Shown piece by piece: positions 39,002-44,751 of a stretch of 44,751 bases of DNA. Each line of letters begins with the position of its first letter. Within the stretch, counting starts at the first letter, position 1. Below the pieces are notes generated by a model that ran no database searches, had not been told where the DNA came from, and worked only from the letters and a program-made list of their open reading frames with translations. A program made the translations under genes and the position numbers. This DNA comes from Candidatus Bathycorpusculum sp. (GTDB taxonomy: Archaea > Thermoproteota > Bathyarchaeia > Bathyarchaeales > Bathycorpusculaceae), in NCBI GenBank assembly GCA_009778385.1, contig WRJX01000095.1, forward strand, positions 1 to 44,751. The letters run 5' to 3'.

Positions 39002-39055
39002 GTTTATGGCAATATCGCCATAAACGGTGAGGTTCGAATCCCACCCCCTGCACCA
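39002..39055 (+). other. tRNA 3'-end fragment with adjoining perfect hairpin, probable attachment site remnant
   Basis: From 39027 the sequence reads GTG-A-GG-TTCGAAT-CCCAC, a T-arm with one inserted A (39030); without it all five stem pairs form. An acceptor strand CCCCTGC (39045-39051), discriminator A and encoded CCA follow. No 5' half (GCAGGGG acceptor, D-arm, anticodon arm) is found upstream, so this is not a working gene. Directly before it GTTTATGGC-aatatc-GCCATAAAC (39002-39025) is a nine-base-pair perfect hairpin. The integrase relic starts 100 bases on, so an old integration target or attachment remnant is the natural reading. Confidence 0.65.
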
Positions 39056-39155
39056 ACAAGATGTGTCTGGTTCTCTTCCTCAAATTTCGGCTCAAAAAAC
39101 CCAAAAAACAAAACCAAAATCTCCGCCTTTAAAAATCCCCGAACACATAAGGGAC

Positions 39156-40374
39156 ATGTCAACAAACAAACCAATACACGACTACGCCCAGCGCATAAAA
39201 CGAAACCGACACAACATACAACAACTCCCAAACGGACAACTAGGACTACAGTTTTTAGATCACCTAAACGCTTTGGGGCTGTCACTTGGTCGCGTGTCCA
39301 AATGTGCCGCACCTGCCCGTATTACTGCGCATAATAGATGGCGCAGACATTAAAGCCATGACAAAAACCGACATAGAACACATAGCCGCCCAAATAAACA
39401 GTAGACCCAACAAAGAATCCACCAAAGCAGACAACAAACTCCTCTTACGCAAAGTAGTTCAATACGCCAAACAAGGCAGTTGCGCCAAAAGCACCCCAAT
39501 ACCACCCGAAGTAAGCTGGATAAGCTTAACAGTAAAAGAAAAAAACCCCAAAGTCACACCAGAAAACTTGCTTACCCAAGAAGAAATAACTGCCATCCTA
39601 AAAGCAGTCACAAACAAACGCGACCGAGCCATCATATATGTACTCTTTGAAGCCGCCCTACGCCCAAGCGAGTTACTAACTATGAGTGTTGGCAGTGTAC
39701 TTTTCAAAGACCAATACTGCTTAATCGCCGCCAACGGTAAAACAGGCATAAAACGCATGCCCATAGTCACCTCAAGCAAACCCCTACTCCAATGGTTAGA
39801 AGAACATCCCTATAGAGATGACCCCCAAGCGCCGCTCTGGTGCTCCTTAGCAGTCAACCACACAGGCGAACGCTTAAGCTATACTCACTTCTGCAAAATA
39901 ATAAAAAACCTAGCCCAAAAGGCAGGAGTAAAACGAAACGTCTGGCCATATCTATACCGTCATACATCTTTGACTGCTATGGCTAAAGTGTTTACCGAGA
40001 GCAGACTTGAACAGTTTGCAGGCTGGACATATGGAAGCAAAATGACAAGACGTTATGTGCATTTTTCCGCAAGGGACTTAGAGGACGCAATGCTAGAACT
40101 ACATGGACTAAAGATACCTTCAAAGGCTGAAGGATTAGCTAAACTGGTTGAGTGCCCCCGATGTAGTAGTAAAAATCCTTTTGGAGACACAAGATGCACA
40201 ATCTGCGGCATGATACTAGACAAAGAGACTGCCCTAAGATTTGAAGACACCCAAAACCAAAAAGAAACAAAACTACAAGAGAAAAATTTGGAACTACAAA
40301 AACGCCTAGAAAAATTGGAAGGTGTTATTTCAACTCTTCTACCCGCCTCCCCTTCACCGGCTTCTCCGTATTAG
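39156..40374 (+). pseudogene. Tyrosine integrase with C-terminal zinc ribbon, frameshifted
   Basis: The N-terminal SAM-like part starts MSTNKPIHDYAQRIKRNRHN and runs to GLSLGRVSK. It then leaves frame near 39301, where two bases seem lost; expected reading continues HLPVLLRIIDGADIKAMTK in the next frame. The catalytic domain has Arg in AALRPSELLTMS, Lys in ANGKTGIKRMP, YRHTSLTAMA (Tyr where the usual HxxR has His) and the nucleophile Tyr in TRRYVHFS. A zinc ribbon (CPRC, then CTIC) and a coiled coil end the protein. The open frame upstream of ATG 39156 extends back through the tRNA fragment. Typical of archaeal provirus or plasmid integrases. Confidence 0.8.
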
Positions 40375-40477
40375 CGCAAAAGGTAAGTTGTTCTTTAGCG
40401 AGTTTTTTTATCTCGCTTATTTCTCTTAGAATTTCTTCTAACATCACTCTATCTACTTTTACATATTCTGCAGTCAT
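40325..40477 (-). CDS. Small helical protein, 50 aa, antisense to the integrase end
   Basis: ATG at 40477 opens 50 codons: MTAEYVKVDRVMLEEILREI, SEIKKLAKEQL and a basic tail ending GRRVEELK. A heptad-like helix suggests a small oligomeric or DNA-binding element protein. It overlaps the last 50 bases of the integrase on the opposite strand. No good Shine-Dalgarno is visible, so it may be chance. It is listed because the helix pattern and charge look real. Confidence 0.35.
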   Translation of the reverse strand: MTAEYVKVDRVMLEEILREISEIKKLAKEQLTFCANTEKPVKGRRVEELK

Positions 40478-40520
40478 TGTTTTTACCAAAGGATAGGTTT
40501 GTCTAGCTTTTTAAAGCGGT

Positions 40521-40577
40521 AGCCAAGGTTTGGGCTAAACGACACAGTCACTGTGTCGTTTTGAACCAACCCTGGCT
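40521..40577. repeat. Folded element copy 1 (57 bases)
   Basis: Outer arm AGCCA/TGGCT closes the element. Inside, AAACGACACAGT (40537-40548) pairs perfectly with ACTGTGTCGTTT (40550-40561) around one base. A GGCT at 40533-40536 can also pair with the 5' AGCC, so two folds compete. It is homologous along its length to the element at 40753-40812, and paired positions change together between copies. It could act as a structured RNA, a cruciform origin or a recombination site. Confidence 0.7.
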
Positions 40578-40626
40578 CCTTCCAAATATTGAACGCATAA
40601 ACAGTAGTTCATCTAACCGTAACTTA

Positions 40627-40653
40627 CACCTAACCGCAAGATGTCGTTAGGTG
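40627..40653. repeat. Inverted repeat CACCTAAC-N11-GTTAGGTG
   Basis: An eight-base perfect inverted repeat midway between the two folded elements. Its arms match the integron-type core pattern RYYYAAC/GTTRRRY, but 27 bases is too short for an attC site and no IntI gene is present. A shorter GGGC-aataat-GCCC lies at 40671-40684. Confidence 0.5.
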
Positions 40654-40752
40654 ATTTGTGACATAGTTTAGGGCAATAATGCCCCAAAGGAGCACGTTTT
40701 AACCAAACCACGTCGCACATGCCCATTGCACACAGTCCCTAGTTTACCGTAA

Positions 40753-40812
40753 AGCCCTAGTTTTAGGCTAAAACGAGACAGCCAGTGTCTTGTTTTGACA
40801 AAAATCAGGGCT
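40753..40812. repeat. Folded element copy 2 (60 bases)
   Basis: Outer arm AGCCCT/AGGGCT closes it. The inner stem pairs AAAACGAGACA (40770-40780) with TGTCTTGTTTT (40786-40796), including one G-T wobble. The competing GGCT lies at 40766-40769. Same order and orientation as copy 1, 232 bases away. Differences preserve pairing: C543-G555 in copy 1 becomes G777-C789 here (last three digits of positions), and the outer A-T pair becomes C-G. Confidence 0.7.
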
Positions 40813-41159
40813 CATTATCTACCCTGTTGGTGTGGTTTTTCTGTGAATGCGCAGGATTTGTTTGAAGGCTATAGTTTGTTTTTGGCGGGTTTGTTTATGT
40901 GGGGGCGAAAAAAAGCGGCGAGTGGTTGCGCTGGTTGTTGGGGTGTGAGGTTTATTGGCAGGCAGGCTTTGTGGAGGTTTTGCTTAATGTTTGTTGTGTG
41001 TGAATGTAAAATGGGAACGCTCAAAAACAGTTTATTTTGATAAAATATCTGCGAATAAACCCAAATAAGCAATAAACAAGACTTATTTACGAGCCATATG
41101 GTTAAAGAAGCTTGAAATGAGCAAATGAAAAAAGAGGAAATTCTGGAAAAAGTTTGGAA

Positions 41160-41490
41160 CCCACCAAAAACAACCCCATTAACCAAAATACCGTGGGAAC
41201 ACACCCCCAAACAACAAACGCACCAACATTTATGCCTATAAAAAGTCAAAAAACATACAAAATACACGATAAAACGGGAAAAACCCAAAAAACATGGTAA
41301 ACCACCAAAAACAACCCCATTAACCAAAAAACGCGTAAAAAACCAACCAAACAACAAACAAAACCACTTTTACACCCCTACAATACACAGTTTTACAAAA
41401 TTTAGGGTAAAAAAACCGTTAAAAACAACCCCATTAACCATAATCTAATGGGAAAACACAACCAAACAGAAAACAAAACCCAAAACACGC
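41160..41490. repeat. Three degenerate ~65-base direct repeats, iteron-like
   Basis: The 20-base core AAAAACAACCCCATTAACCA occurs exactly at 41166, 41307 and 41421. Each is followed by a looser copy of a tail containing CCAAACA(A/G)(A/C)AAAC about 45 bases later, so each unit is ~65 bases. Starts are 141 and 114 bases apart. A-rich strand bias and direct orientation recall iterons at plasmid or viral origins. They are too far apart for a CRISPR array. No replication initiator gene is seen nearby. Confidence 0.65.
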
Positions 41491-41540
41491 ATCATCTAAT
41501 TAAAAAGGCACAAAATAAGCCCAATTAAAATACAAAAAAA

Positions 41541-41623
41541 GTAAGCACACTTACTCGCCCCCATCATATATACATTAAAATTATGTATTTTTTGTTTCCC
41601 AAATCATCTGTAAGTCCGCTTAC
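41541..41623. promoter_or_regulatory. Two GTAAG-N4-CTTAC palindromes flanking a TATA-like stretch
   Basis: GTAAG-caca-CTTAC lies at 41541-41554 and GTAAG-tccg-CTTAC at 41610-41623, with equal arms and equal spacer length. Between them is CATCATATATACATTAAAA, a good TATA candidate near 41565-41580. Paired operators astride a promoter are typical of tight repression. The gene served would be the HD-ATPase (leader ~450 bases) or an unseen short transcript. Confidence 0.5.
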
Positions 41624-42074
41624 TTCCCGTTTGCACTGCCTTTGCTTTGCCTCCCCTCAGCATTCATAAAGATTGGCATAATTTCAGACTGCATAAAAAA
41701 AATATTTGCATATAGATTTATGGATGCTTCCGATTTTAAGGAAAGAAATTTGTTCCAGTTAGAAGAATCTCACTTTCAGAAATTTGAACTGCTCATAACG
41801 CTCCGAATCCATATAACACACAAGCATCACCGTAAGCATATTCTTCAATCCCTTGGGATCAATGCCTCCAATACCCCCTTAACAACTCTTGGAAACCTCA
41901 ACCATTAAACGCTCCAGATTATTTGTATAAGGTATATCCGTCTCCTCCAAGCCAATTTTTTAATGATAAAGTATAATAAAATATGTAAAAATAGGTGCAT
42001 AATATACACCATAATCAACAAAAAAGGATTTTATAGTTGAACAGCCTAACTTTAGCGGTTAAAAGGCTGATGAA

Positions 42075-44474
42075 ATGATTAAGAGCATCAAAGAGTGCGC
42101 CTTATACAAGGAGAGACTTGATACGGATAGACAGGCTATTCTAAATAGTTGTGAATCTTTCCTTAACACTCTTTGGGATGGGGATAGAATAATTCCATAT
42201 TATACAGATCACGGGCTTATGCACTCGTTAAGGGTTATTGAAAATATTGAAAAAATGCTAAGATTAGATGTAAATGTAAAGAGCGATATTCTTAGTGATG
42301 ATGAGATATTTTTGTTATTGTTAGCCGCTCTACTTCATGACATTGGTATGCAATGTAACTTGAGTTCACATAAAGAAGTTAAAGAAAAAGCAACAACTAT
42401 GGGTGCTTTATTTGAGAGCAAATTCGGCGATAAACTTGATGATGATAATAAAGAAGAAATACGTAAGTATCACCATATTATTACATCCGCTTGGTTGCTT
42501 GATGTCTCAAAGTCGCCCGATAGGGTTACAAATGTACCTCTAAGAGATGCTTTAAGGGATTTAAAGAGAAGTTTACGGTCAGATTTACGAATAATTTGTG
42601 AGTATCATTCAAAGAAAAACATTGATGAGTGTGACGAGTTTTCTAAGATTGATGGCAGAATTAGGCTTCGTTTTTTGGCGACACTTTTACGCTTGGGTGA
42701 TGAACTTGATATAAGTGAAGACCGAGTGGATATAAAAAGGGTAAAGATGTTCCCTTATCCTGAAAAGAATAGTTTTTATTGGTATCTGCATAGTCAAACA
42801 AAAGTTAAAATCATCAACAACAAAATATCCCTGAAACTAATGCTTAGCGAGAATGATGTTGGTAATTACAAGCATGAATTTGTTAAATATATAAAACAAG
42901 ACTTCTATGAAAAAAATTCAGGTATCATCGAACTGTTACAGGGTAAATACAGTTTACCTATTTTTCTCGATGTAGCAGAAAATTGTGTTGTAGAAGGCGA
43001 CTATGAAGATCTGCGTGACGAAGTTATATCTATTCTTGTAGATTATGTTAATAAAAGCATGGCTCAAGAACAGGGTGTAGACCGGCAACGTGATGTTAAG
43101 CAAATTTCTTTTGACTACACAAATTCGCTCACAATGTTGGCAGAGCAAGGTGACGCTAACACACAATACCGTTTAGGTCGTTGTTATAATGGCGAAAATG
43201 ATGAACAGGCTATATGTGTTTTCAAGGATATTAATGGGCAAAAAGTAATTTTTGATGAAAATTTGCTAAGTAAACACCTGCTATTTATAGGCGGAATCGG
43301 CACAGGCAAAACAAACGCGATTTATCAGGTTATAGAGCAATTTCAAGCTAATTTATCAGAAAATGACGTTATGGTTATTTTTGACGCGAAAGGCGATTAT
43401 TACAAAGAATTCTACCGTCATGGACTTGACATTGTTATTAGCAACGACGATAAAAGTGTCGGGATTGATGGAAAAAAGGACTATTGGAACATTTTTAATG
43501 AAATTGAACGCGACAACCACATGGAAGAAAATATTATTGAAGTTTCCAAAACACTGTTCAATGAAAAAAGAGTTAAATCACAACAGCCATTTTTTTCGCT
43601 TGCAGCAAAAGACTTGTTCAGCGCAGTATTGTTCCATTGTTGCCGCGATAAAGATAGTGAACGTTTCTATAACTCCGACCTTCGGCAATTTTTGGAATCG
43701 GCGAATGTTGAAATTATATTGAAAATGATTAATCTACACGGCGACCTAAAGGCAATGAAAAATTACGTCGAGGACGGCACTTCAAATATAGCCTTGGGCG
43801 TATTAGCCGAATTACAAGAATTGATAAGAGAAATTTTTGTCGGTAACTTCAAGCAAAAAGGTACCTTATCGATAAGAAAACTTGTTCGAGAAAAGAAAGG
43901 GCGAATAATCTTTATCGAGTACGATATAGGCACAGGGAAGACGCTTACCCCCATTTATAGCCTTTTGTTTGATCTTGCTATAAAAGAGGCGTTATGCCGC
44001 ACAAAAAACGAGGGAAATGTGTATTTTATTGCCGATGAGTTCAAGCTGTTACCACATCTGCAACATATTGACAACGCCGTTAATTTTGGGCGCAGTCTTG
44101 GCGTAAAGTTTTTGATTGGTGTGCAGAACATTGAGCAGGTTTATGAGGTGTACAGCGGCAGTAAAAACGGAAGTGAACGCGCAAGGAACTTACTGTCGAG
44201 CTTTTCAACTTCTATTTGTTTTAGAGTAAACGACAAGAAGTCACGCGAATATATTCAGAGCTTGCACGGAAAGAACAGAAAATTGGAAACTTTTATGTCA
44301 TCCATACCAAACAGGGGTATTGAAGAGAAAATTCGTGAGGCGTATGTTGTAGAAGATTGGGACATCTCACGGCTGAACATAGGACAGGCAATTATCGGAC
44401 TACCGAACAACGCGCCCTTTTTGTTTACGTTCAAAGAATATAAATCCAAAAAGCAAAACCCATTGATTTCATAA
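42075..44474 (+). CDS. HD phosphohydrolase domain fused to Sel1-like repeat and VirD4/TraG-like ATPase
   Basis: A 799-residue cytosolic protein with no membrane helix. Residues ~40-215 form an HD domain: YTDHGLMHSLRVIENI (His46, His50), LLAALLHDIGMQ (His88-Asp89), KYHHIITSA (His133), CEYHSKKN (His178) and LLRLGDELDIS (Asp209). This resembles HD domains recruited to prokaryotic conflict systems. After a helical part comes one Sel1-like repeat, LTMLAEQGDANTQYRLGRCY (352-371). The ATPase follows: Walker A FIGGIGTGKTN (404-414), Walker B VYFIADEFKLLP, Gln684 in IGVQNIEQV, and RVNDKKSREYIQSLHG as in TraD/VirD4. A nuclease or nucleotidase activity driven or gated by a DNA- or RNA-translocating ATPase is inference. 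A leader hairpin masks the start region. Confidence 0.75.
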   Translation: MIKSIKECALYKERLDTDRQAILNSCESFLNTLWDGDRIIPYYTDHGLMHSLRVIENIEKMLRLDVNVKSDILSDDEIFLLLLAALLHDIGMQCNLSSHKEVKEKATTMGALFESKFGDKLDDDNKEEIRKYHHIITSAWLLDVSKSPDRVTNVPLRDALRDLKRSLRSDLRIICEYHSKKNIDECDEFSKIDGRIRLRFLATLLRLGDELDISEDRVDIKRVKMFPYPEKNSFYWYLHSQTKVKIINNKISLKLMLSENDVGNYKHEFVKYIKQDFYEKNSGIIELLQGKYSLPIFLDVAENCVVEGDYEDLRDEVISILVDYVNKSMAQEQGVDRQRDVKQISFDYTNSLTMLAEQGDANTQYRLGRCYNGENDEQAICVFKDINGQKVIFDENLLSKHLLFIGGIGTGKTNAIYQVIEQFQANLSENDVMVIFDAKGDYYKEFYRHGLDIVISNDDKSVGIDGKKDYWNIFNEIERDNHMEENIIEVSKTLFNEKRVKSQQPFFSLAAKDLFSAVLFHCCRDKDSERFYNSDLRQFLESANVEIILKMINLHGDLKAMKNYVEDGTSNIALGVLAELQELIREIFVGNFKQKGTLSIRKLVREKKGRIIFIEYDIGTGKTLTPIYSLLFDLAIKEALCRTKNEGNVYFIADEFKLLPHLQHIDNAVNFGRSLGVKFLIGVQNIEQVYEVYSGSKNGSERARNLLSSFSTSICFRVNDKKSREYIQSLHGKNRKLETFMSSIPNRGIEEKIREAYVVEDWDISRLNIGQAIIGLPNNAPFLFTFKEYKSKKQNPLIS

Positions 44475-44751
44475 ACCTGACTTTTTGATTGTGTTTATAC
44501 ATGTTTTTTACAGTTACTGTTGTATCTGAAATAACAATCATTAATTGTTGTTTGCACTTCTGTGAGTGCTCAAAACTTATTAGGAATAAATGTATCTATT
44601 CTTTAGTGTCTAATATGAAGTCTCAAAGTCTAAGCCAAGATTTTGAGGAAAGGCTCCAGACGCAAACAGGTCAATCCCACTTTCAGAACTACCTATGGAT
44701 GATGACTGATTTGCATATTGTGCTGTTGTAACTGGTTTTATTTGGCAGTCC
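44475..44751. other. Right-edge DNA after the HD-ATPase
   Basis: A frame with ATG near 44616 reads MKSQSLSQDFEERLQTQTGQ and stops at ~44731 after HIVLL. It matches nothing I know and lacks a convincing ribosome binding site. A partner gene of the HD-ATPase, if any, would lie beyond the window. Confidence 0.35.

Follow-up and report, generated by a model that had tools for sequence, protein, structure and literature searches.

Behind the gene for a XerA-like integrase, the window (the whole stretch of 44,751 nt analysed herein, being one contig of a 2.18-Mb genome in 105 contigs) carries a row of three related two-tier palindromes, designated A, M and B, and the same motif of about 60 bp is located, in larger integrated elements, directly 3' of the gene for a protein of about 200 aa, designated p200, with which its sequence co-varies. 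On balance, we lean to the view that the window contains a decayed hitchhiking element, of which the palindromes mimic the sites of p200-carrying helper elements and which was served by these helpers in trans. From sequence comparison we infer that p200 binds the site, that copies of the site are recognized in trans, and that the small element benefits therefrom.

In this proposed mechanism, A, M and B would be three variants of one double-stranded DNA site, owned by a family of larger elements that are integrated at tRNA genes in Bathyarchaeia and in several cases carry genes of conjugation type. The site would be bound by a p200 dimer, with the N-terminal domains on the inner arms and the C-terminal domains on the outer arms; the larger element would use the p200-site complex in transfer or maintenance; and small elements carrying copies of the site would be transferred or maintained in trans by such helpers. 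How archaeal conjugative elements mark DNA for movement is an open question, for which we offer a concrete site, a candidate partner protein for which the arms contacted by each domain are predicted, and small elements seemingly collecting several versions of the site. The question thereby becomes testable in vitro although the hosts, members of the termite-gut genus Candidatus Bathycorpusculum, are known here only from metagenome-assembled genomes.

Table 1. Location of the features of the small element within the window.
Feature	Position	Strand	Evidence or remark
tRNA 3' end comprising T arm and CCA-terminated acceptor, remnant of the left attachment site	39031..39055	+	
XerA-like tyrosine recombinase gene, C-terminal CxxC...CxxC motif	39027..40374	+	Pfam Phage_integrase, E 7.5e-17
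ORF of 54 aa, running convergently to the integrase gene and overlapping its 3' end	40325..40489	-	
Element A, two-tier palindrome with outer and inner arms	40521..40577	+	57 nt; 68.9 bits, model R2
Element M, two-tier palindrome between A and B, window copy decayed	40658..40716	+	49.5 bits, model R2
Element B, two-tier palindrome	40753..40812	+	60 nt; 58.0 bits, model R2
Non-coding stretch following the array and conserved in related small elements	40813..41640	.	self-alignment and matches
Cargo gene, HD-CE domain fused to TrwB/TraD-like ATPase (799 aa)	42075..44474	+	
Element right end	44598..44680	+	homology with L032 and L040 at their right ends breaks off in a truncated ATCCCAC

Symmetry and covariation of the palindromes

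The first-pass annotation had described A and B as two homologous folded elements with compensatory base changes, and both were confirmed, with none of 200 shuffled sequences folding as well as RNA in either case (z -5.4 for A and -4.6 for B). All the pairs it had named are present in the window (last three digits of positions: C543-G555 versus G777-C789, A525-T573 versus C757-G808, and G541-C557 versus the wobble G775-T791), and homology, folding potential and covariation extend to dozens of copies. M, of like architecture and absent from the first-pass annotation, folds weakly in the window (z -1.15; 21 of 200 shuffles as good), and counterparts of M with better pairing are found in L033, L038, L040, L041 and L043. 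The alternative pairing of the 5' AGCC with a middle GGCT indeed exists in A and B of the window but is not conserved elsewhere, the middle stretch being GCGT, GACT, GACA, GGGC or GGGG in other array elements. The A-M-B block occurs three times in its own genome, each time behind an integrase gene, with 91% and 82% identity on the two other contigs.

A search of archaeal genomes with a covariation model, which had been suggested as a check on the two copies, was carried out with a model from the aligned copies (R2, superseding model R1 of weak structure with 12 pairs) on 67 sources; L047, L048, L051, L064 and L070, which duplicate L040, L038, L039, L043 and L129, respectively, were left out. 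Among 44 aligned elements, standard pairs occupied 85.9% of 1036 cells, compared with 68.6% after shuffling, and changes on both sides of a pair were found in 175 cells, compared with 65.8 after shuffling; neither value was reached in 500 shuffles, which are not to be read as probabilities since the 44 elements are related. When the registers were slid, pairing fell to 50.2% of cells or less.

The gap between inner and outer arms is equal on the 5' and 3' sides in 22 of 23 ICE-type sites and in 38 of 52 others, as counted for the sites with an outer-arm score of at least 5 in a search that left unequal gaps unpenalised. The arms are thus dyad-symmetric about one centre, as expected of a site bound by a symmetric dimer.

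Covariation including a wobble had been taken by the first-pass annotation to favour a structured RNA, and an early count of G.T against A.C mismatches, 42:6 over five array loci (L047, L048, L064, L070 and g9), backed that reading, as do the strong covariation itself and the sense orientation of the elements behind the integrase gene and, on the best model strand, behind p200 in 18 of 22 ICE sites. For the whole set, from which L057 (same place as L115) and L067 (a partial hit) were dropped, the mismatches were 79:45 in array sites but 20:20 in ICE sites, and the ratio per locus correlates with the G+T content of the flanking sequence (Spearman 0.57, p 0.0017, 28 loci), so that the wobble argument fails; the preference for G.U over A.C that marks the strand-specific pairing of a structured non-coding RNA is not what the ICE sites display. 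Covariation by itself does not prove RNA either, because a duplex site for a symmetric dimer yields covariation without any folded strand. Together with the symmetric internal gaps and the lack of any Rfam family at gathering score in the window, these counts make a structured RNA very unlikely. Symmetry, mismatches and the co-variation with p200 described below favour a double-stranded DNA site for a p200 dimer. The other possibility raised at the outset, a DNA cruciform used by a recombinase or replication protein, came nearer as regards DNA, but the likely partner is not a recombinase, the motif tracking p200; the site may nevertheless act as a cruciform or as a folded transferred strand.

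p200 and the adjacent site in ICE-like elements

Outside the arrays, the motif immediately follows the p200 gene, normally in one copy, except for the lone sites in L118, L120 and L128. The p200 gene is the last of an operon that also includes genes for a TFB-like zinc-ribbon protein and for ParB_N, and this operon is convergent with two genes for small membrane proteins, one matching T4SS_pilin. A dyad score of at least 14 was obtained behind 18 of 24 p200 genes but behind only 1 of 120 other ORF ends of the same loci. As to the p200 loci of low dyad score, the site is located 3 kb away in L042, a decayed match of 17 bits is found in L156, the sequence folds with z -4.7 in L158, and model matches of 49.9, 35.4 and 22.6 bits are present in L117, L127 and L055, respectively. 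Three p200 loci from outside the genus carry a site in the same place with quite different stem sequences (L157, 31.2 bits and z -8.6; L158, as above; L159, z -3.3).

Some variations of this arrangement were noted. Three tandem, near-identical sites stand behind p200 at L122:2637-2831 with a spacing of about 68 bp, a leucine-rich-repeat gene lies between the site and p200 at L042:9634-12227, and a gene for a mad2-like protein (PADLOC E 8.4e-21) is inserted beside the ICE site at L113:6501-7277. The lone sites L118:5873-5931 and L120:5100-5159 are poorly paired and occupy one and the same locus in two genomes, where they are flanked by chromosomal genes in convergent orientation, with neither p200 nor integrase on the stretches read.

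The p200 elements are called ICE-like herein because of the VirB4-like, prepilin peptidase and pilin-like genes of several of them, and are regarded as putatively conjugative. Those p200 elements that were read further carry genes for a VirB4-like ATPase, prepilin peptidase, TBP and ArdA, and integrases related to that of the window are present in L055, L057 and L112; in the stretches of L157 and L159 that were read, cargo was present and T4SS genes were not found. No relaxase was detected by Pfam among the ICE proteins scanned. A virus origin of the larger elements was considered because of the small membrane proteins, and was rejected since the genes for a VirB4-like ATPase, prepilin peptidase and ArdA are suggestive of conjugation; the PHROGs families matched below E 0.001 on these elements were only integrase, ParB-like and unknown-function families, a match to a methyltransferase family falling on the same ParB stretch. 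An ICE-like element of the window's own genome appears to carry a gene for TATA-binding protein (L130:6494-7093) besides the TFB-like gene.

In the structure model of p200, of modest confidence (pLDDT 67), a long helix connects two winged-helix-like parts, and p200 is hence predicted to be a tandem winged-helix protein; Foldseek gave no match to the model below E 0.001, and only weak matches of MarR/PadR type. The model of the ParB_N protein matches the structures of ParB, Noc and KorB (Foldseek E about 1e-8).

The distance between sites correlates with the distance between p200 proteins with r 0.61 over 20 elements, a value reached in none of 5000 permutations, compared with 0.47 for the TFB-like protein, 0.44 for ParB, 0.34 for m150 and 0.08 for m146. 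Partial correlations were determined for the 12 of these 20 elements with all five proteins intact, L114, L124, L125 and L126 being dropped for fragmentary proteins and others because one of the five was missing: the correlation with p200 given ParB was 0.39 (14 of 2000 permutations), while that with ParB given p200 was -0.14. The p200 correlation persists given ParB, m150 or m146 and less clearly so (129 of 2000) when the TFB-like protein is given; no other protein retains a clear correlation with the site once p200 is given. When the two tiers were treated separately for 19 of the 20 elements, the inner arms followed the N-terminal domain of p200 (partial correlation 0.445, 0 of 3000 permutations) and the outer arms its C-terminal domain (0.278, 20 of 3000). 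Taken jointly, the contrast of inner arms with N-terminal and outer arms with C-terminal domain was reached by 39 of 3000 permutations, by 30 and 41 of 3000 with two other domain borders, and by 105 and 6 of 3000 after dropping three or four elements; all these permutation tests remove relatedness only partly.

The site, located where the p200 operon ends towards the convergent genes, could also be a transcription terminator between them, and runs of at least five T indeed follow 32% of the 22 ICE sites in the sense direction, compared with a background of 11.5%. Such runs are found at none of the 22 on the other strand, and at only 6% (sense) and 4% (antisense) of the 53 array sites; moreover, a terminator would not need to match the type of p200, and we hardly expect this explanation to hold.

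A partition centromere or replication origin, bound by p200 and ParB in the manner of AspA-ParB of pNOB8, with the small elements segregated or replicated by the ICE machinery, is a possible explanation that we take seriously. The p200 gene follows the ParB_N gene and p200 is a predicted winged-helix protein, and for pNOB8 PMC5120986 describes a winged-helix protein, AspA, that binds a 23-bp palindrome and ParB. The likeness thus comprises an archaeal mobile element, a winged-helix protein beside ParB (on our side with a weakly supported fold for p200) and a palindromic site by the gene for that protein. The pNOB8 site, according to the same source, is 23 bp in length and upstream of aspA, whereas the present site is about 60 bp in length, two-tiered and downstream of p200, and the p200 operon differs also in its TFB-like gene and in that no ParA was recognized among the ICE proteins scanned, some of which had no Pfam match. 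In addition, a partition site alone poorly explains the several site types within small elements. Since AspA-ParB of pNOB8 is the nearest analogue of the p200/ParB pair, transfer is not claimed as the role of the complex in the reading that we prefer, the site of a p200 dimer used in transfer or maintenance.

Small integrated elements carrying the arrays

The arrays, 11 loci in 8 genomes, belong to a family of small integrated elements with the common order of integrase gene, row of palindromic elements, conserved non-coding stretch and cargo. The array stands behind an integrase gene in the window, L031, L032, L038, L040, L043 and L129; in L039 one palindromic element follows the integrase gene and the contig then ends, and the arrays of L033, L034 and L041 are on contigs without integrase. 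Up to 9 elements are present per array in the relatives, the spacers between elements measure from about 30 nt to a few hundred and contain no cassette genes, and several integrase-only loci have no such array.

The homology of the window with L031 and L032 begins at about the tRNA 3' end and is about 2 kb in length. An intact tRNA gene precedes the integrase gene in L032, L038, L043 and L129, and the tRNA 3' end only in the window, L031 and L040; ARAGORN detected no whole tRNA gene in the window, of which the tRNA 3' end is that of the intact tRNA-Leu of L032. In L032 an 18-bp repeat of the tRNA-Leu 3' end closes the element 7.3 kb downstream, and in L040 a 15-bp repeat of the tRNA end closes it 8.0 kb downstream; no intact right attachment repeat of at least 13 nt was found in the window. 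Compared with the C92 copy, the window integrase gene has a deletion of 2 bp near 39309 and is thereby split into two frames, 39027-39353 and 39286-40374; the C92 copy matches NCBIfam XerA_Arch with E 4.5e-18, below the cut-off of that model. With this deletion, the weak M and no intact right repeat, the window copy of the small element is decayed. Relatives of the window integrase on named contigs are mostly from Candidatus Bathycorpusculum, the rest from Nitrososphaerota, Bathyarchaeota and, in one case, Nezhaarchaeota, and none was found among viral contigs.

As in integrative mobilizable elements, the family has its own integrase and attachment sites (the attachment not intact in the window) and no conjugation apparatus of its own. 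Neither p200 nor ParB nor a T4SS operon is present between the ends of the window element, and the single TrwB-like ATPase of the window, fused to an HD domain, is read as cargo and not as a conjugation apparatus. This 799-aa protein matches Pfam HD-CE (E 6.7e-30), TrwB_AAD_bind (E 2.7e-42) and PADLOC mad8 (E 6.8e-17), and might be a defence-like protein. The cargo in L032 includes an OLD/GajA-like protein, its long ORFs between the ends being the integrase, a 717-aa unknown protein and the OLD-like protein, while L040 carries a KilA-N protein and a 1218-aa protein. The conserved stretch behind the array of the window matches L031, L032, L040/L047, L038/L048 and L057.

An A+C-rich, iteron-like unit of 54 to 88 bp is present in three copies in the non-coding stretch of the window (41147-41232, 41288-41372 and 41413-41480). 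A TATA-like sequence on the minus strand, TTTAAAAA, lies between the 54-aa ORF and element A, abutting A, and a reading similar to this ORF occurs behind the integrase gene in L043 and near the lone site in L128.

The row of palindromes next to a tyrosine recombinase gene, each with two paired boxes, an unpaired middle and a short loop, might suggest recombination sites of the adjacent integrase, comparable to the attC sites of integrons, a likeness that we take the two-tier palindrome to have. The integron integrase model TIGR02249, however, gives scores of 16.6 and 20.6 bits against a cut-off of 265, no cassettes are flanked by the sites, attachment takes place at tRNA ends, and the ICE site is kilobases away from the ICE integrase gene, so that this explanation has next to no chance of being correct. 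In integrons, including archaeal ones, a tyrosine recombinase likewise precedes a series of varied palindromes able to fold, as described in PMC9668308; by comparison with that description, the present elements contain neither an integron-type integrase nor cassettes separated by attC, and differ from integrons in the attachment at tRNA ends.

Site types in arrays and the proposed mimicry of helper sites

The p200 gene is present in 13 of 32 genomes of the genus and in 16 of 256 in the class. Sites were identified in 14 of the 32 genomes, including all 13 with p200, by a model that was trained on copies from these same genomes, and the 8 genus genomes with arrays are all among the 13 with p200 (p 1.2e-4). 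Shared ancestry or habitat may be behind this co-occurrence.

The ICE sites were divided by eye into groups a to i for comparison with the array sites. Mean identity is 0.62 within an array and 0.61 between array and ICE sites. For 26 of 53 array sites there is an ICE site with an identity that equals or exceeds the 95th percentile among ICE-ICE pairs, and 14 of 22 ICE sites have another ICE site that matches as well. By array, four ICE groups are matched in L033, three each in L041 and L043, two each in L040 and L129, one each in the window (through element A), L031, L032, L038 and L039, and none in L034. Examples of matching array and ICE sites are L041:2478 with L126 (0.92), L043:9878 with L114 (0.88), L129:7153 with L124 (0.87) and window A with L036 (0.83). 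Since several related arrays resemble the sites of different p200 lineages, more than one helper could recognize such an element.

When all 22 ICE sites were compared, the nearest neighbour of 36 of 52 array sites was an ICE site and not an array-mate, but with equal numbers drawn the ICE set won in only 35.9% of draws. That every array site is nearer to an ICE site than to those beside it in the array can therefore not be maintained, while the finding that arrays span several types is kept; array-mates being somewhat closer at equalised numbers, duplication within arrays also played a part.

The nearest working analogue of such arrays is provided by staphylococcal plasmids, as presented in PMC8136818. 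Helpers of the pWBG749 family with different specificities carry different subtypes of one cis site, the specificity being set by SmpO, a helper-coded DNA-binding protein of the ribbon-helix-helix type, and non-conjugative plasmids carry oriT mimics, some of them 2 or 3 and mostly of different subtypes. In agreement with mimicry of this type, the site subtypes in the present elements follow a putative helper-coded specificity protein, here as a statistical co-variation. The staphylococcal system is bacterial and relaxase-based with 2 or 3 mimics in some plasmids, while the present one has a two-tier palindrome, two predicted winged helices, no relaxase recognized, and up to 9 sites per array.

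The several different site types in one array could also be those of a decoy titrating the p200 of incoming or resident ICEs and thereby blocking competitors; a symmetric protein site would serve well as a sponge, and the small elements carry defence-like cargo. Against one ICE site, however, 3 to 9 sites would be few for a sponge, and we judge this explanation unlikely.

For archaea, two publications (PMC9905601, PMC11389934) state that no relaxase homologue has been recognized and that hitchhikers of conjugation might exist but are unidentified. In the titles and abstract openings of the open-licence PubMed Central literature, we found no report of such site arrays in Bathyarchaeia, and none of such a site or hitchhiker in archaea was found in the literature searched. 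As a tentative suggestion, of which we are rather doubtful ourselves, the palindrome could be an origin-of-transfer-type site of archaeal ICEs with p200 as its recognizer, and the window could then belong to the first archaeal family of conjugation hitchhikers collecting the sites of several helpers.

Outside the genus, an independent case of such a match is provided by an integrase element of another Bathyarchaeota genome (L067) and a p200 element (L159), which share the outer arms GGCACCCCCC/GGGGGGT.
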